Of a DNA stretch of 64,000 nt, positions 49,149 to 56,339 are shown in pieces. Numbering within the stretch: the first letter of the stretch is position 1; every line of letters starts with the position of its first letter. The stretch is from positions 2,108,001-2,172,000 of the forward strand of contig NZ_PDJJ01000001.1 in assembly GCF_002563715.1 (NCBI RefSeq). Reading direction: 5' to 3'. This DNA comes from Isoptericola jiangsuensis (GTDB taxonomy: Bacteria; Actinomycetota; Actinomycetes; Actinomycetales; Cellulomonadaceae). Position numbers and translations under genes: made by a program. Below the pieces are notes generated by a model. It did no database searches. It was given only the letters and a program-made list of their open reading frames with translations, and was not told the origin of the DNA.

Positions 49149-50101
49149 CGTGCACCTCCGGCCTTGAGTGCCGTCCGACGGCGGCGCAGGTACTCGCGGC
49201 CCGGGCCGGCCGTGTAGCACCATCCCGAGTCGGTCGGCGCGTCCCCGAGCGCTTCGAAGTGCGCGTGCGCGGCCGCCGGGCGTCCCCCGACGGAGAGGAG
49301 CATCGCCAGCTCGCTGTGGGCGTGGCTCGTGGCGGTCGACGGCGTCGACCTCTCGTGGAGCACGGACCGCGCGGCCGCTGCCTCGATCTCGTCCAGGACG
49401 TCCCCCGTCAGCGCGCCGTCCTTGTCCTCCAGCCATCGTTCGACGTGCACGGCGGCCACGAGAGCGGCCGACGGGTGCCCGTCGGGGGCGGCGGCGGCCC
49501 GCTCCCGCGCGAAACCGAAGGCGTCCTCCCACGATCCCGACCACTTGGGGCAGAGCTGCTGGACCAGCGACCGCTGCGCCCAGGTGCGGTGCGGGTCGAG
49601 CGCCTCCACCCGGGCGTAGCGGCGGCGTGCCTCCGCCAGGCCGAGCTCGAGCCCGCGCGCCGTGGTCAGCCGGGCGTCCCACGCCGGCGTGTGGTCCGGG
49701 TGCCGGCCGCAGACCTCGACGAGCGTCCGTTCGGCGGCCTCCAGGTCCGCGGAGAACATCCGCCACCCCTCGCGGGTCACCGTCGACGCCCGGCCGCTGC
49801 CACGGGCGCGCCAGGCGGTCACGGTGAGCCGGGCGGCGCGGAGCGTCCCGAGCACCGGGTCCGCGGGCTGCGCGGCCAGGGCGGCCCGCCAGGGGCCGTC
49901 GAGCTCGTCGATCTCGGCGAGGAGACAGTGGGCGACGGTGGCCTGCTCGTCGCCACCGAGGCGCACCAGCGCGTCGTGCACCGTGGCGACGTCCCCGGAC
50001 CGTGCCGCGGCGCGCAACGGTTGCAGGTCCGGCTCGCACCTCCACGGATCGAAGTCCGGCTCGGTGGTCCGCTTCGTCGGTGCCGTCGACACCCCGCCCA
50101 T
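49145..50101 (-). CDS. TPR-like hypothetical protein coupled to the M16 peptidase
   Basis: A 318-residue, mostly helical protein with tetratricopeptide-like repeats: RAAARSGDVATVHDALVRLG, LEAAERTLVEVCGRHPDHTP, LAEARRRYARVEALDPHRTW, SELAMLLSVGGRPAAAHAHF. It has no signal peptide, so it is probably cytoplasmic. AGGAG lies five bases before the ATG. It overlaps the peptidase gene by four bases, suggesting a shared function as partner or substrate adaptor. No named family is assigned. Confidence 0.6.
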   Translation of the reverse strand: MGGVSTAPTKRTTEPDFDPWRCEPDLQPLRAAARSGDVATVHDALVRLGGDEQATVAHCLLAEIDELDGPWRAALAAQPADPVLGTLRAARLTVTAWRARGSGRASTVTREGWRMFSADLEAAERTLVEVCGRHPDHTPAWDARLTTARGLELGLAEARRRYARVEALDPHRTWAQRSLVQQLCPKWSGSWEDAFGFARERAAAAPDGHPSAALVAAVHVERWLEDKDGALTGDVLDEIEAAAARSVLHERSTPSTATSHAHSELAMLLSVGGRPAAAHAHFEALGDAPTDSGWCYTAGPGREYLRRRRTALKAGGAR

Positions 50102-50397
50102 CGGCGCTCCTCACGTCGGGCCCCGGGCGGCTCGGTACACCGCGACACCGGGACGCGCGGACCCTATCAGCGACATATGACACATCTGCGCCCACGGCAC
50201 CCAGAACGGACATCGCGGGGCGACGCGGCGGGAGGTGGACGCCACCGCTCCCCGGCTGGTCGCGCGACGGGTCGTCCCCCGGGATCCTCCGCACGGACAC
50301 CCTGCGGTCCTCCGGCGCGGCTCGCCGACGCCCGAGCCCGGGCGGGCGAAGATCGTCCCAGGGGCGGCACGGCGCCGTCCCGCGATGGAGGTGGACG
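50102..50397. other. Longest intergenic gap (296 bases), promoter region
   Basis: Divergent gap between the TPR-like gene and the DUF1330-like gene. On the minus strand TAGGGT (50162-50167) is a possible -10 box. Around 50172-50183 is a less GC-rich stretch including CATATG. I see no terminator, RNA gene or credible short coding region. Confidence 0.35.
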
Positions 50398-50709
50398 ATG
50401 GCGATCACCCTGTGCGTGCTGCTCTGGGCGGCCGAGGGCGAGGGCGAGACGCTCGCCGCGTACGAGTCGGAGGCGCTGACGCTGGTGCCGAGGCACGGGG
50501 GGCGTGTGCTGCAGCGGGTGACCAACGTGGCGCACACAGACGACGCGGCGCACGGCGGCGTGCAGCCCACCGAGGTGCAGATCATCGAGATGCCCGACGA
50601 GGACGCCCTGGCCGCGTACATCGCCGACCCGGACCGGGTGGGCCGGGTGGAGGTCCGCGACCGCGCCGTCGCCCGCACCGAGATCCTGCGGGTGCGGCCC
50701 GTCGACTGA
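50398..50709 (+). CDS. DUF1330-like small alpha/beta-barrel protein
   Basis: A 103-residue protein: ITLCVLLWAAEGEGETLAAY, TLVPRHGGRVLQRVTNVAH, VQIIEMPDEDALAAYIADPD. This resembles the ferredoxin-like dimeric barrel of DUF1330 and related proteins. GGAGG lies eight bases upstream of the ATG, just inside the short leader. No partner. Function unknown. Confidence 0.65.
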   Translation: MAITLCVLLWAAEGEGETLAAYESEALTLVPRHGGRVLQRVTNVAHTDDAAHGGVQPTEVQIIEMPDEDALAAYIADPDRVGRVEVRDRAVARTEILRVRPVD

Positions 50710-50736
50710 GAACGGGCACCGACGCCCGGTCGCGGC

Positions 50737-52893
50737 TCAGAACAGGGTCGGGCCGCGACCGGGCACGGGCGGCGGCTCCCCCGCGGCCGACGGCTCGACG
50801 ACGGAGCCCGCCGGGTAGTCGCCGTCGTCGTGGGGCCGCAGGTCGTCGGTGTGGCGGCCGGTCGCCCCGGATCGGGCGCGATGCCCGGAGCGCGCGAACC
50901 CTCGTTCCTCGAGCAGGGGCTGCACCCGCTCCCACAGCCAGTCGCGATATCCGGTCAGCGGGTACGTGCCGCGCGTGAACACCCGGCCGTACCCGTCGAC
51001 GAGGTGCGGGTGGTCCCGGGCGAGCCACTGGAGGTACCACTCGCGGGTGCCCGGCTTGAGGTGGAGCGGCACCACGGTGACCCCGGAGGCACCGGCGTCG
51101 GCAATGTCGTCGAGCAGCCGGCGCAGGTGGTCGCGGGAGTCCGTCAGCCACGGCAGCACGGGCGCGACCATGACCCCGCAGGGCAGCCCCGCCTCCCGCA
51201 CGGCACGCACCAGCGCGAGCCTCGCCCGTGGTGTCGGCGTCCCCGGCTCGACCGCCTGCTGGAGCTCCTCGTCGGCGAAGGCGAGCGACACCCCGAGCCC
51301 GATCTCCACCCGCTGCGACGCCTCCACCAGCAGCGGCAGGTCCCGGCGCAGCAGCGTCCCCTTGGTGAGGATCGAGAACGGCGTGCCGGAGTCCGCGAGC
51401 GCCCCGATGATCCCCGGCATGAGCCGGTAGCGTCCCTCCGCCCGCTGGTACGGGTCGGTGTTGGTGCCGAGAGCGACGGGCTCGCGTCGCCACGACGGAC
51501 GGGAGAGCTCCGCGCGCAGCACCTGGTCGACGTTCGTCTTGACGACGACCTGGGAGTCGAAGTCCGCCCCCGCGTCCAGGTCGAGGTACTGGTGGGTCGG
51601 GCGGGCGAAGCAGTTGTGCGCGATCACTCCGTTGGCGATGAAGTCGCCGGTACCGGTCGTGATGTCCACCATCTCCTCGGTCCGGTGGAGGTCCTCGATG
51701 GACGCCACGCCCAGATCCGTCGTCGATTTCACCGAGGTTCCCTGAACGGCGAGGTTTCGCGAGATGGCGGGCCGTGCCAGGCGGAAGAACCGCTGCCGCG
51801 CCGGCAGTCCACCGGTCACGCGCACGACGGCGACACCGTTCGGTCGAGGCGGCTCGAGGACATGTGTCACTCCCAGGCGCACCATCGCCCGACAGATCTG
51901 GTCGAGAATCTCGCGGTCCTTGTTGGAGATCCGCAGGACTCCGCGCGCGCAGGACCCTTCCGCGTCGAAGATGCCGCCGAGGAACCCTCGGTACCACTCG
52001 TCGGTGGGAGCGTCCGGCCAGTCGATCAACGCGTTGATGCGCGCGAAGTCCGCGCGGCGCCCGCTGTGCAGCGCGGTCATGCTTCGACGGGTCGGGCTCG
52101 CCGGGGCGAAGGCGCGGCGACGGACGACGATCCCCTCCGCCTCGAGGTAGTCGGCCGACCGGTCGAGGACCTCGTCGTCGGCCAGAGCGAGCCGGAACAT
52201 CGTGACACGGCAGGTCCCGCCCGACTTCCTCGGATACGTTCCGTCGAACAGCATGGCGTCCCCCCGGAGCATCCCGGTCAGATAGCCGCGCCGATAGTCG
52301 GGCCCGTGCGTTCCGTGGACGACCGGAGGGAGCCCGCTCGACCCGAAGCCCATCAACGAGTCGTTCCCGGTCAGGTACGGACGCCGGCCCGCACCGGGGG
52401 GCGCGGGCCGGAGGTGCTTCCAGCCGCGACCCCGGGCGAGGAACCGGTGGTCGTCGCTCGCGACGATCACGGTGCCGTCGCGGAGCGTCAGCCGGTGCGC
52501 CGGCTTCCTGGACCTCCAGGTCGCCTCCACGGTGGTCGTGACGTAACGCCGATATCGCCCTTCGCGTCGGGTACCGACGATCTCGTCACCGACGACGATC
52601 TCGCCGATGGGCTTCTGACGCCCGTCGGCCATCAGCACCAACGTGGTGGGCGACACGCAGTAGGCACACGCATGGCTGCATCCGCGGTAGGGGTTCACCG
52701 TCCACCGGAACGGCATCCGGGACGCCTCGGGCACCTTGGACAGCGCGCTCCTGGCGTGCACCTCGTGGAAGGTGACCCCGGCGAACTCCGGGGTGGTGAC
52801 GCTGCGGACGAGCCCGAGGCGGGCGAGACCCGCCCGTTCGAGGCCGGGCAGGGCGCCGTCGTCAGCGCTGAGCGCCTGCCCGTCCCATCTCAT
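50737..52893 (-). CDS. Intein-containing Rv2578c-family radical SAM protein
   Basis: A 718-residue precursor; the host protein is 369 residues after removal of a 349-residue intein. The host belongs to the SplB-like radical SAM group conserved in actinobacteria as Rv2578c. The iron-sulfur motif CX3CX2C is made by Cys72 and Cys76 and the extein cysteine that directly follows the intein (residue 428). Other host motifs are ALGTNTDPYQRAEGRYRLM, SILTKGTLLRRDLPLL and LHLKPGTREWYLQWLARDHP. ATG 52893 overlaps the upstream papain-like gene by four bases, but it also has its own SOS-type promoter, so DNA damage probably induces it. Substrate unknown. Confidence 0.92.
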   Translation of the reverse strand: MRWDGQALSADDGALPGLERAGLARLGLVRSVTTPEFAGVTFHEVHARSALSKVPEASRMPFRWTVNPYRGCSHACAYCVSPTTLVLMADGRQKPIGEIVVGDEIVGTRREGRYRRYVTTTVEATWRSRKPAHRLTLRDGTVIVASDDHRFLARGRGWKHLRPAPPGAGRRPYLTGNDSLMGFGSSGLPPVVHGTHGPDYRRGYLTGMLRGDAMLFDGTYPRKSGGTCRVTMFRLALADDEVLDRSADYLEAEGIVVRRRAFAPASPTRRSMTALHSGRRADFARINALIDWPDAPTDEWYRGFLGGIFDAEGSCARGVLRISNKDREILDQICRAMVRLGVTHVLEPPRPNGVAVVRVTGGLPARQRFFRLARPAISRNLAVQGTSVKSTTDLGVASIEDLHRTEEMVDITTGTGDFIANGVIAHNCFARPTHQYLDLDAGADFDSQVVVKTNVDQVLRAELSRPSWRREPVALGTNTDPYQRAEGRYRLMPGIIGALADSGTPFSILTKGTLLRRDLPLLVEASQRVEIGLGVSLAFADEELQQAVEPGTPTPRARLALVRAVREAGLPCGVMVAPVLPWLTDSRDHLRRLLDDIADAGASGVTVVPLHLKPGTREWYLQWLARDHPHLVDGYGRVFTRGTYPLTGYRDWLWERVQPLLEERGFARSGHRARSGATGRHTDDLRPHDDGDYPAGSVVEPSAAGEPPPVPGRGPTLF
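51613..52659 (-). mobile_element. Intein with LAGLIDADG homing endonuclease domain
   Basis: A 349-residue intein. Block A begins at Cys1 (CVSPTTLVLMADG), block B has ASDDHRF (Ser in place of the usual Thr, with the His kept), and the end is ITTGTGDFIANG then VIAHN followed by an extein Cys. Two endonuclease helices are present: LTGMLRGDA (residues 127-135) and FLGGIFDAEG (226-235), both with their acidic residues kept, so homing may be active. Its insertion point is directly before the third cysteine codon of the radical SAM motif. One 60-base stretch (51721-51780) has about 65% GC, lower than most of the window. Confidence 0.88.
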
Positions 52894-53492
52894 GCCGCTA
52901 TTCGAACACCCGTTCGATCGACTGTCAACGCCGCGTCGACGGCTCGGGCACCCGCTCCCCCGTCGGGGCGCTCCGGCGCGTACTGCTTGAGGTCGCCCTC
53001 GAACAGCACGGCGCCGGGCACGTCGCGCAGCGTCTGCGGGCGGACCTCCCAGCGCGGGACGCCGAGGTCGCACACACCCGCGTGGCGCAGCACGTGGTAG
53101 ACGAACTCGGAGCAGAAGTACCGGTTGCCGTCCTCCGTGCCGCGCCCGACGAGGCCCCGCAGCAGACCGGGCGTGTTGTACGAGTAGGTGTGGCCGTCGA
53201 GGAGGAACCGGCCGATCTCCGCGCCGACGGCGTCCCGCTGGCCGTCCGTGGCGGGCACCTCGAGGACGAGGCCGGGCAGGGTGTCCATGGAGCGGTAGAC
53301 GTCGTCGTCGAGCCGTTCCCGCTTGAAGCAGCCGACGAACGGGTTGCGGGCACGGCGGCGACCGAAGCTGAACATGAGGTCGAGGGTCGGGTCGAGCGCG
53401 AGGGCCGCGTGCGTGTAGTCGTCGCCCGTCGCGATGCGGATCGTCCGGGACAGGACCGTGCTGCTGCGGGACAGGACGACGTAGACGCTCAT
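52890..53492 (-). CDS. YiiX-like permuted papain-fold amidase/peptidase
   Basis: A 200-residue protein. The N-terminal His (GDDYTHAALAL, His28) precedes the Cys (YFCSEFVYHVLRHAG, Cys127), the circularly permuted order of the YiiX/NlpC-P60-like group, which hydrolyse amide or thioester bonds. It has no signal peptide. TACGGT lies seven bases before the ATG. The gene overlaps the radical SAM gene by four bases, and its last 13 codons contain that gene's promoter and SOS box. Confidence 0.7.
   Translation of the reverse strand: MSVYVVLSRSSTVLSRTIRIATGDDYTHAALALDPTLDLMFSFGRRRARNPFVGCFKRERLDDDVYRSMDTLPGLVLEVPATDGQRDAVGAEIGRFLLDGHTYSYNTPGLLRGLVGRGTEDGNRYFCSEFVYHVLRHAGVCDLGVPRWEVRPQTLRDVPGAVLFEGDLKQYAPERPDGGAGARAVDAALTVDRTGVRIAA
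52900..52928 (-). promoter_or_regulatory. SOS-controlled promoter of the radical SAM gene, leaderless
   Basis: TTGACA, a perfect -35 box (52923-52928), a 17-base spacer, and TCGAAT as -10 (52900-52905), ending six bases before the ATG at 52893. The transcript should be leaderless. The whole promoter lies inside the 3' end of the upstream coding sequence. Confidence 0.75.
52902..52917. promoter_or_regulatory. LexA SOS box, perfect palindrome
   Basis: TCGAAC, four bases, GTTCGA: the full mycobacterial/actinobacterial LexA consensus. It covers the -10 box and most of the spacer of the radical SAM promoter, so bound LexA would exclude RNA polymerase. In M. tuberculosis the same gene (Rv2578c) is also part of the LexA regulon. 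Confidence 0.85.
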
Positions 53493-53499
53493 GCGCCCG

Positions 53500-53505
53500 A
53501 CCGTA
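53500..53505 (-). promoter_or_regulatory. Candidate -10 box of leaderless papain-like gene
   Basis: TACGGT ends seven bases before the ATG at 53492, with no Shine-Dalgarno sequence between. Confidence 0.45.
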
Positions 53506-53530
53506 GCGGTTCGCGGACCACGTCCGTGCA

Positions 53531-53567
53531 GGTCACCGTGAAGATCAGGGGGATCTTCAGGGTGACC
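53531..53567. repeat. 16-bp inverted repeat in a divergent promoter region
   Basis: Arms 53531-53546 (GGTCACCGTGAAGATC) and 53552-53567 are complementary except for one G-G pair, with a five-base loop. It lies between two divergent starts (53492 and 53688), so it could be an operator for either gene or a structured RNA leader of the VOC gene. Confidence 0.6.
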
Positions 53568-53687
53568 TCCGGTACCCGGCGGGGGTGTCCCCGAGGGTCT
53601 CCGGGTCCACCGGCCGATGAGTCCGGCGTGCCCGGCAGGTCGCTGCTGGTGTCCCGGCGGCACGCGCCGGGCACGAAGGAGGCCACC

Positions 53688-54071
53688 GTGATCACCGTCC
53701 AGCAGGCGTTCAGCAGCTTCAGCGTCGACGACCTCGACGCGGCGGAGGCGTTCTACCGGGACGTGCTCGGGCTCGACGTCCGGCGCACGCCGATGGGCCT
53801 GGAGCTCGACGTCACGGGTGGCACGCCCGTGTTCGTCTACCCCAAGGGCCCGGCGCACGCGCCGGCCAGCCACACCGTGCTCAACCTCGTCGTCGCCGAC
53901 GTCGGCGCGGCGGCGCGCGACCTCGCCGGGCGCGGCGTCACGCTGGAGCGCTACCCCGGGACGCCGCACGACGCCGACGGCGTGGTGCGCAGCGACGACC
54001 CGTCGCAGGGACCCACCATCGGGTGGCTGCTCGACCCGGCCGGCAACACGGTCGCGCTGATCGAGGCGTGA
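53688..54071 (+). CDS. VOC-family (glyoxalase/bleomycin resistance-like) protein
   Basis: A 127-residue vicinal-oxygen-chelate fold protein with two beta-alpha-beta-beta-beta units: FSSFSVDDLDAAEAFYRDVL with GLDVRRTPMGLELDV, then HTVLNLVVADVGAAARDLA, and the closing IGWLLDPAGNTVALIEA. Only some metal ligands are apparent (Glu in the last motif), so it may be a binding protein. AAGGAGG lies five bases before GTG 53688. The upstream gap holds the 16-bp inverted repeat. It converges on hisS. Confidence 0.85.
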   Translation: MITVQQAFSSFSVDDLDAAEAFYRDVLGLDVRRTPMGLELDVTGGTPVFVYPKGPAHAPASHTVLNLVVADVGAAARDLAGRGVTLERYPGTPHDADGVVRSDDPSQGPTIGWLLDPAGNTVALIEA

Positions 54072-54131
54072 CGACGTCGGCCCGCCCGCCGGTCGGTGCG
54101 GGGCGCGGGACGCCGCCGTCGGGACCGGGAC

Positions 54132-55529
54132 TCAGCCGGCGGCGGGGACGACCCGCGGCCACAGGTCGGCCGCGGGCGGCTCCCACGCGCCGGCGTCGGC
54201 GTCGACCTGCTCGCCCGAGCGGATGTCCTTGACCTGGTCGGGGCCGGTCGCGCCGTCCTCGCCGGTGGCGCCGAGGAACCACACGAACGGGATGCCGCGG
54301 CGGTCGGCGTACCGGATCTGCTTGCCGAACCTCGCGGCGGTGGGCGCGACGTCGGCCGGGATCCCGCGGGCGCGCAGCGCCGCGGCGACGGCGTCGGAGC
54401 GGTCGCGGGACTCCTCGTCGAGCACGGCCACGAGGACCGCGGTGGGGACGCCGCGGGTCGCGGCGACGAGGCCGGCGGACAGCAGGCGCGACACGAGGCG
54501 GGACACACCGATGGACAGGCCCACGCCCGGGTAGGTGTTCTTCCCGTCCGAGGCGAGGGTGTCGTAGCGGCCGCCCGAGCAGATCGAGCCGAGCTGCTCG
54601 TGCCCCACCAGGACCGTCTCGTAGACCGAGCCCGTGTAGTAGTCGAGGCCGCGGGCGATCTTGAGGTCCGCCACGACGACGCCCGGCGCGCGGCGGGCCG
54701 CCGCCTCGACGAGGGCGCCGAGCTCGGCCAGGCCGGTCTCCAGCAGCTCGGTGCCGGCACCGTACGAGACCGCGAGCGCCCGCACCCGGTCGATCACGGT
54801 GGCGTCGGAGCCGGAGATCGCGGCGAGCTCGAGGCAGGCCCTCGCCTGCTCGGCGGTGGCGCCCTGCTCGGCGACGAGGAGCGCGGCCACGGCGTCGGCG
54901 CCGATCTTGTCGAGCTTGTCGACCTGGCGCAGCACGCCCTCGACGTCGTCGAGGCCGAGGCCGCGGTAGAAGCCCTCGGCGACCTTGCGGTTGTTGACGA
55001 GGATGCGGACCTCGGGGACACCGATCTCGCGCAGCGCGCCGAGCGCCTCGGCCATGACCAGCGGCAGCTCGACCTCGAAGTGGTACGGCAGGTCGCCGGC
55101 GCCGACGACGTCGATGTCGGCCTGCGCGAACTCGCGGAAGCGGCCGTCCTGGGGGCGCTCGCCGCGCCACACCTTCTGGATCTGGAAGCGCTTGAAGGGG
55201 AAGGCGAGGCGGCCGGCGTTCTCCAGCACGTAGCGGGCGAACGGCACGGTGAGGTCGAAGTGCAGGCCGAGCTGCTTGTCGCCCCTGTCCGACGACGCGG
55301 CACCTGCGGCGTCGTCGGTCTCGTCGTGGAGGCGGCGCAGGACGTACACCTCCTTGGAGGTCTCCCCCTTGCGCAGCAGCTGGTCGAGGGGTTCGACGGC
55401 GCGGGTCTCGATGCCCGCGAACCCGTGCAGCTCGAAGGTGCGGCGCAGCACGTCGAGCACGTGCTGCTCGACGATGCGCCCGTCGGGCAGCCATTCGGGG
55501 AATCCGGAGAGCGGGGTGACGCGAGCCAT
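54132..55529 (-). CDS. hisS: Histidyl-tRNA synthetase
   Basis: A 465-residue class II synthetase. Motif 1 region RRTFELHGFAGIETRAVEPL, motif 2 FPFKRFQIQKVWRGERPQDG with RFREFAQADIDV, and the histidine-binding ARGLDYYTGSVYETV are all present; the anticodon-binding domain has AALRARGIPADVAP. It is a little longer than the common 420-430 residues at its C-terminal tail. It precedes no other minus-strand gene directly; the MBL hydrolase is upstream. Confidence 0.96.
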   Translation of the reverse strand: MARVTPLSGFPEWLPDGRIVEQHVLDVLRRTFELHGFAGIETRAVEPLDQLLRKGETSKEVYVLRRLHDETDDAAGAASSDRGDKQLGLHFDLTVPFARYVLENAGRLAFPFKRFQIQKVWRGERPQDGRFREFAQADIDVVGAGDLPYHFEVELPLVMAEALGALREIGVPEVRILVNNRKVAEGFYRGLGLDDVEGVLRQVDKLDKIGADAVAALLVAEQGATAEQARACLELAAISGSDATVIDRVRALAVSYGAGTELLETGLAELGALVEAAARRAPGVVVADLKIARGLDYYTGSVYETVLVGHEQLGSICSGGRYDTLASDGKNTYPGVGLSIGVSRLVSRLLSAGLVAATRGVPTAVLVAVLDEESRDRSDAVAAALRARGIPADVAPTAARFGKQIRYADRRGIPFVWFLGATGEDGATGPDQVKDIRSGEQVDADAGAWEPPAADLWPRVVPAAG

Positions 55530-55589
55530 GGGTGAGATCTTCCCAGATCCTGGCGGTGCCCGTGGACGCGGCCGCGCGTCCGGGACGCG

Positions 55590-56339
55590 TCAGCGGGGCA
55601 GGAAGGGGTTGGTCGCGAGCTCGCGCGCCACGGTGCTGGTGGGTCCGTGGCCGGGCAGGACGACGTGCCGGGGCGGCAGGGCGGGGACGACGTCGCGCAG
55701 CGTGGCGAGCATCGCCTCGACGTCGGCGCCGGGCAGGTCGGTGCGGCCCACGCCGCCGGCGAACAGCACGTCACCGGTGAGGACGACGCCGGTGACCTCG
55801 GCGTCGGCGTCGGCGGCTGCCGGACCGTCCAGGAGGTAGAGGGTGGAGCCCTCGGTGTGGCCGGGCGCGTGCAGGGCGCGCAGGCGCACGTCGCCGGCGG
55901 TGAGGTCGGTGACGGCGCCGTCGAAGGGCTCGACGCGCCCCGGCGCCCGGAAGTCCCGCGGCGTGACGCCGTAGGCGTCGAGGGCCTCGACGAGGGCCTC
56001 GCTCACGCTCGCGGCGGGTGCGTCGAGCGCGGCGCCGAGGCCGATGGTGCCGAACGGGTCGGCGACGCGGTAGGCGTCCGCGGCGTGCAGGCGCAGGGGG
56101 ACGTCGTAGCGGTCGCAGAGCTCGGCGGCGTCCCACGTGTGGTCGACGTGGCCGTGCGTGACCAGCACCGCGCGCGGCACGAGACCCTGGTCGCTGACGA
56201 GGCGGTCGACCTGCCCGGCGGTGCCGGCGCCCGGGTCGACGACGACGCAGTCGCGCCTGCCGTCGTCATGAGCCTGCGCGGCCACGACGACGCAGCAGTT
56301 GGTGCCGAACACCGGGGCGACCACGACGTGCACGTCCAT
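55590..56339 (-). CDS. Metallo-beta-lactamase-fold hydrolase (glyoxalase II-like)
   Basis: A 249-residue binuclear zinc hydrolase. The signature VTHGHVDH gives His62, His64, Asp66 and His67; further ligands are in HAPGHTEGSTLYLL and VLTGDVLFAGGVGRTDL, and the terminal PGHGPTSTV. Its place next to hisS corresponds to Rv2581c of M. tuberculosis, also glyoxalase II-like. TACGGT lies six bases before the ATG. The thioester substrate is inferred only. Confidence 0.93.
   Translation of the reverse strand: MDVHVVVAPVFGTNCCVVVAAQAHDDGRRDCVVVDPGAGTAGQVDRLVSDQGLVPRAVLVTHGHVDHTWDAAELCDRYDVPLRLHAADAYRVADPFGTIGLGAALDAPAASVSEALVEALDAYGVTPRDFRAPGRVEPFDGAVTDLTAGDVRLRALHAPGHTEGSTLYLLDGPAAADADAEVTGVVLTGDVLFAGGVGRTDLPGADVEAMLATLRDVVPALPPRHVVLPGHGPTSTVARELATNPFLPR

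Follow-up and report, generated by a model that had tools for sequence, protein, structure and literature searches.

A LexA box, a putative leaderless promoter, and a start codon held in fixed register upstream of an actinobacterial radical-SAM gene

We analyzed 64,000 nucleotides of the Isoptericola jiangsuensis genome (contig NZ_PDJJ01000001.1, positions 2,108,001 to 2,172,000; hereafter the window), in which a radical S-adenosylmethionine (radical-SAM) gene of the Rv2578c family is preceded by a LexA (SOS) box set within promoter-like elements that end at its start codon. We conclude that an old, LexA-repressed, leaderless promoter, physically tied to the start codon, very probably drives this gene. 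Two results carry this conclusion: the box lies 23 to 25 bases before the start in 189 of 220 upstream regions of Rv2578c-family genes, and a Shine-Dalgarno-like motif (GGAGG, AGGAG, GAGG, or AGGA) at -20 to -4 occurs in none of the 172 nonredundant regions that share this layout. Both support the original prediction, made from the window alone, of a LexA-controlled leaderless promoter.

Results

Architecture of the promoter region

All elements lie on the minus strand; window coordinates are followed by positions relative to the A of the radical-SAM ATG, counted as +1.

52923..52928, minus: -35 element TTGACA, at -35 to -30
52922-52906, minus: 17-base spacer between -35 and -10, read from the window letters
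52902..52917, minus: LexA (SOS) box TCGAACGGGTGTTCGA, a perfect palindrome, -24 to -9
52907..52908, minus: extended -10 TG, at -15/-14, within the LexA box
52900..52905, minus: -10 hexamer TCGAAT, at -12 to -7, with C at -11 where A is usual
52894..52899, minus: six-base discriminator, after which transcription is predicted to start at the A of the ATG
52890..52893, minus: ATGA, in which the radical-SAM ATG (52893-52891) overlaps the TGA (52892-52890) of an upstream open reading frame (ORF) labeled papain-like

The original prediction had placed TTGACA, the 17-base spacer, TCGAAT, six further bases, and the ATG at these positions, and each was confirmed. It had also described a perfect LexA palindrome covering the -10 box; the palindrome is exact, matching the actinobacterial LexA/SOS regulon consensus TCGAAC-N4-GTTCGA at every specified base, but the cover is partial, spanning four of the six bases of the -10 plus 12 bases of the spacer. 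As claimed, the whole element falls within the final 13 codons, counting the stop, of the papain-like ORF, as read from the window letters. The TG at -15/-14 together with the -35 element corresponds to an extended -10 promoter of the sigma-A type, and, as expected for a leaderless gene, the -10 lies six bases before the ATG and the window shows no Shine-Dalgarno motif there. An Rfam scan of 50000-56000 returned nothing at gathering score.

A chance origin of the box was ruled out by the rarity of the palindrome and of the compound element. The exact palindrome occurs once in the window and four times in the 4,041,252-bp genome, and when up to one mismatch is allowed, 24 genome sites match the box pattern versus eight for the reversed pattern. 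The compound pattern TTGAC-N6-TCGAAC-N3-TGTTCGA-N-T has a single genome match even at up to three mismatches (control, 0).

Conservation of the register among relatives

We collected relatives by matches to the protein model NF038135; 101 of 150 genomes from the same taxonomic family gave matches, as did 174 of 396 genomes of the phylum (45 above cut-off). The regions analyzed came from 90 of the 103 taxonomic-family match rows plus the window, 50 phylum rows from the 174 matching genomes (30 loci including the window and 20 more), and 80 of 590 confirmed relatives from named genomes, the last comprising Cellulosimicrobium, Cellulomonas, Microbacterium, Mycobacterium and kin, Rhodococcus, Nocardia, Gordonia, Jiangella, and a few more. 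This gave 220 upstream regions including the window, 211 of them unique, and 203 representatives below 90% identity. A box was counted as in register when it began at -23, -24, or -25 with at most four of 12 mismatches, which held for 172 of the 203 representatives. In the same taxonomic family, the register is kept in 89 of 90 regions, the exception (L104) having an exact box at -74. Among the 172, 89 boxes are exact, 55 have one mismatch, 11 two, 13 three, and four have four, so that 155 carry two or fewer.

Conservation in these 172 aligned representatives extends beyond the palindrome. The first base of the -35 is T in 166, and the TG of the extended -10 is present in 159. In 136 the -35 TTG keeps the 17-base spacing, a number that rises to 160 when a spacing of 18 is also accepted. 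T-12 and C-11 are invariant (172/172). The two halves of the palindrome are not treated alike: T-15 is found in 159 representatives versus 99 for its palindromic partner A-18, T-7 is kept in 166 with its mirror A in just 35, and the right half GTTC is intact in 171 versus 138 for the left half GAAC. To judge from these alignments, the -35, the TG, and T-7 are kept beyond what a palindrome needs, and the symmetry is broken in the direction expected for a promoter.

The distance from box to start varies by at most one base either way, and the discriminator is five to seven bases long in every representative, with either ATG (117) or GTG (55) as start codon. This fixed length is not due to low divergence, because the letters of the spacer and discriminator vary freely and stay near background (at most 0.34 bits at the places listed, four for the discriminator). 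As a control, we measured the distance from the SOS box of recA to a landmark near its start in 23 of 30 loci read in the same taxonomic family (one, L317, has two equal boxes, at -345 and -190, of which the further was counted). Sixteen of the 23 boxes lie at 183 to 194 bases and seven at 206 to 345, with 17 distinct distances; the spacing at recA is thus looser than at the radical-SAM gene, yet not random. The boxes of lexA (22 of 30 loci read) are scattered about 190 to 350 bases before a landmark in a protein with a variable N terminus, which makes them a weaker control.

These measurements bear on the most serious alternative, that the LexA operator is real but the mRNA carries a leader and starts elsewhere, the spacing being merely inherited by descent. 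The -10 without A-11 and an empty consensus promoter scan speak for it, as do the Streptomyces-like relatives, which look leadered, and the fairly stable recA box distance within the taxonomic family. We nevertheless consider it unlikely, because Shine-Dalgarno-like motifs are absent from -20 to -4 in all 172 representatives, the length is constant to within one base over variable sequence across genera of several orders, and the -35, TG, and T-7 all stand in the canonical register for a start at +1.

Evidence weighing against a LexA-repressed leaderless promoter

Several observations count against a LexA-repressed leaderless promoter. TCGAAT matches TATAAT at four of six bases and is no canonical TANNNT -10 (A-11 plus T-7), since T-7 is present and the invariant C-11 takes the place of A; a sigma-70 promoter scan requiring A at the second -10 place made no call on it. 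When counting is extended to the last base before the start, GAGG appears in 10 of the 172 representatives (one as AGGAG); at that distance it would be too near the start for a normal Shine-Dalgarno site, though it could still count as one. Most recA distances fall inside a 12-base band, so even this comparison is partly constrained. At some Microbacterium loci, just eight or nine of the 12 box positions match. Because the species are kin, none of the counts are independent. Finally, 31 of the 220 regions lack the layout: the best box lies at -14 (over the start) in four, at -26 in five, at -29 to -36 in seven, and at -46 to -49 in nine, with single boxes at -70 (L110), -74 (L104), -77 (L134), and -82 (L119), and no box at three or fewer mismatches within -120 to +5 in L145 and L152 (the latter, having no credible start, was counted as a miss).

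Two groups of relatives showed distinct arrangements. Four phylum relatives (L150, L153, L154, and L155) have a box GCGAAC-N4-GTTCGT that, at -14, overlaps their start codon. At Streptomyces-like loci, from genomes of 6 to 10 Mb, GAGGAGG precedes the start and a three-mismatch box GGGAAC-N4-GTTCTA lies at -46 to -49; one of the Streptomyces-like loci (L119) has the better box at -82 mentioned above. Separately, in L205 and L219 the radical-SAM ORF ends after 42 and 58 codons, and these may be pseudogenes or sequencing errors.

A-11, which the -10 here lacks, is thought to be the base most needed by sigma-A. LexA probably needs the C at this position, in which case the promoter could be a compromise, with the -35 and the TG sharing the load with a discriminator rich in G (91 of the 172 representatives have G at -6, and 94 have G at -5).

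In Microbacterium, it is the left half-site that is often altered. We examined ten Microbacterium genomes (L267-L286) and found CGAA[GT]NTANCTTCGA at lexA in nine and TCGAA[GT]-N4-GTTCGA at recA in eight. Since the lexA and recA boxes are off consensus too, the LexA preference in this genus seems, from these sites, to have drifted; loss of LexA control there was set aside for the same reason.

Proposed mechanism

We propose that LexA bound to the palindrome would hide the extended -10 and most of the spacer and so exclude sigma-A RNA polymerase. DNA damage would lead to RecA-stimulated cleavage of LexA and free the promoter, and RNA polymerase, engaging TTGAC and TGTTCGAAT, would start at the A or G of the start codon or at most one base from it. 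The resulting leaderless mRNA would be translated from its 5'-terminal ATG or GTG. Because the transcription start would then be the start codon, operator, promoter, and start codon could be moved only as one block. In a few lineages, a codirectional papain-like ORF runs across this older promoter and ends in the start codon.

The papain-like ORF and the overlap

52890..53492, minus: papain-like ORF, 200 codons, whose last 12 residues LTVDRTGVRIAA are encoded by the promoter DNA

The name of this ORF comes from the original prediction and could not be confirmed: it has no NCBIfam match and no Pfam match even at E 10. A homologue lies upstream of the radical-SAM gene in seven of 140 loci including the window, and in one of the 80 loci from named genomes. 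Of the seven ORFs, five extend across the promoter as far as the TGA of an ATGA or GTGA; the other two (in L048 and L028) end earlier, and the box lies beyond their stops. In L035, the conserved core abuts a promoter-encoded tail, LTLDGTRVRMAA, almost directly. The neighbors that stop early with the box kept, together with the L035 junction, indicate that the promoter predates the overlap and that the tail was written by the promoter. Going by this distribution, only a handful of Isoptericola and a single nearby genus have the overlap, which is younger than the promoter. The fully intragenic layout that the original prediction singled out is therefore a lineage-specific feature, with overlap in five of 140 loci.

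We were concerned that the palindrome might be a by-product of coding constraint on the C terminus of the papain-like protein, because the final 12 residues are alike in all five overlapping ORFs. This explanation is refuted by the relatives without a papain-like neighbor: 181 of the 189 regions with the layout have no papain-like homologue in the upstream DNA covered. With the box also kept in L048 and L028 beyond the earlier stop, and with the L035 core joined almost straight to the tail, we regard coding constraint as practically eliminated.

A second concern was that, in the overlapping lineages, expression might come mainly from papain-like read-through with ATGA coupling, the SOS promoter being minor. 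The ATGA/GTGA overlap in five loci fits this, as does the lack of any terminator-like site found in 52700-53800. Yet the overlap is confined to those five of 140 loci, all five retain the box, the -35, and the -10, and a separate conserved region, with a leaderless-looking start, lies upstream of the papain-like gene, so that we hold this explanation to be very improbable. LexA bound at the older promoter could also block such read-through, which the original prediction proposed as a possible second source of the radical-SAM mRNA.

Upstream of the papain-like ORF (window 53493-53560, minus), we noted by eye TACGGT about seven bases before its ATG and CCCTGA direct repeats about 11 to 12 bases apart. 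All seven loci have, also by eye, TANNNT about seven bases before the papain-like start and CCTGA repeats upstream. These features resemble a further leaderless promoter accompanied by a regulator site of direct repeats, and with its own TANNNT and CCTGA repeats the papain-like gene is probably controlled separately.

The radical-SAM gene and its intein

50737..52893, minus: Rv2578c-family radical-SAM gene with intein, 718 codons, matching NF038136 and NF038135
51613..52659, minus: intein, 349 residues, boundaries assigned by eye, inserted between the Tyr and the third Cys of CX3CX2C

The product scores 828.3 bits against NF038136, the intein-containing form (cut-off 700), and 521.5 bits against NF038135, the Rv2578c family (cut-off 430). 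The intein region matches Pfam LAGLIDADG_3. In intein-less relatives, the sequence runs from the third Cys into FARP; since the intein splits the iron-sulfur motif, splicing should be required before the cluster site exists. When the 99 full-length family members, the window included, are sorted purely by match length, 57 have no insert, 26 carry a mid-length insert, and 16 a long one.

The C-terminal extein gave no PDB sequence match at E 0.01. A model of an intein-less relative had a mean predicted local distance difference test (pLDDT) score of 68.1, with 142 of 379 residues at 90 or above, and a fold search with it returned radical-SAM barrels of many kinds without a decisive match. Among the 50 matches listed, spore photoproduct lyase entries had the top query-normalized TM-scores (0.42-0.43, at 12-14% identity), although not the best E-values. 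Given its apparent SOS control, a DNA-repair role for the enzyme is plausible. The original prediction takes Rv2578c of Mycobacterium tuberculosis to be LexA-controlled.

Other SOS boxes of the genome

L002: exact box, first base 71 before the start taken of the imuA' gene
L001: exact box, first base 59 before the HEPN_SAV_6107 gene
L004, 1501-1516: exact box, no recognized gene adjoining (single ORF tested, no Pfam match)
recA: one-mismatch box, 169 bases before the gene
lexA: one-mismatch box, 146 bases from the start taken
ruvA (L013, 1501-1516): one-mismatch box TCGTACGGGTGTTCGA, first base 33 before ruvA

The ORF after the HEPN_SAV_6107 gene reads, by eye, like DinB. The recA, lexA, and ruvA boxes each carry one mismatch, so the exact window box is no poorer a match than the boxes of core SOS genes. 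At ruvC-ruvA, the SOS box lies in the 3' end of the ruvC ORF, past the part matched by RuvC models; the ruvA GTG overlaps the ruvC stop, and a purine-rich leader makes this look like a leadered cousin of the radical-SAM layout.

Discussion

The results pinpoint a conserved, putative SOS gene of the radical-SAM type that, in part of its family, carries an intein in the iron-sulfur motif. If splicing of the intein in CX3CX2C gates the active site, this would be a noteworthy property for an SOS gene. The promoter is well defined, in that the predicted transcription start, the operator, and the start codon form one target for study, and it illustrates how a leaderless start could freeze regulatory geometry. 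It is also a natural case for asking whether, in actinobacteria, a missing A-11 can be made up for by an extended -10.

A wider proposal, possible though doubtful, is that the 35-base string is a block as old as the phylum, serving at once as -35, extended -10, LexA operator, and, by distance, ribosome entry. GTTC would be fixed as promoter, C-11 tolerated, and the left half-site left to drift, as in Microbacterium. The overlapping lineages would use the start codon twice, in leaderless form after damage and by stop-start coupling on the read-through mRNA when LexA is absent or leaky.

SOS control of an actinobacterial radical-SAM gene and leaderless SOS or recombination genes are already published. 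In Streptomyces venezuelae, the radical-SAM gene vnz_31145 is a LexA target by chromatin immunoprecipitation, responds to mitomycin, and was likened by its authors to thymine cross-link repair enzymes (PMC9380542). We compare it as a radical-SAM gene and not as an established NF038135 orthologue; its box is reported as TCGACCGTTCGCTC at -61 (PMC9380542), versus -46 to -49 for GGGAAC-N4-GTTCTA in our Streptomyces-like loci. A radical-SAM protein, likely of the Rv2578c family, belongs to a predicted core Gram-positive LexA regulon in a set including M. tuberculosis, Leifsonia xyli, and Acidothermus cellulolyticus, and the available portion of that report describes no promoter geometry, leaderless start, or overlap for it (PMC7739468). 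In alpha- and beta-proteobacteria, LexA control has been predicted for the photolyase gene splB (PMC3323433), and SplB-like radical-SAM genes share operons with SOS genes (PMC3765255). Work on Streptomyces names the Rv2578c family, deems its link to DNA repair speculative, and reports that, in the strain that naturally hosts the phage under study, the gene is inactivated (PMC12924846). Among the matches listed from main texts of the open-licence literature, we did not find the fixed geometry across the phylum in print, and no paper in that literature joined Rv2578c with LexA, Rv2578c with an intein, or PA0069 with LexA.

Two similar layouts are known from M. tuberculosis. Its lexA is, like the window gene, an SOS gene whose translation start is the transcription start; it is a different gene, and overlap with an upstream gene is not mentioned in the available portion of the report (PMC2897130). 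The intragenic arrangement, considered unusual in the original prediction, has precedents both in the SOS box within ruvC before ruvA of the same genome and in the recX promoter within the 3' end of recA (PMC3062782). The recX promoter is also leaderless, with overlapping coding regions and a start at the A of the ATG, and cotranscription of recX with recA is reported for M. smegmatis (PMC3062782). The two differ: the recX promoter is described as raising recX expression without damage (PMC3062782), whereas the radical-SAM promoter has a LexA box over its -10 and spacer and is older than the overlap.

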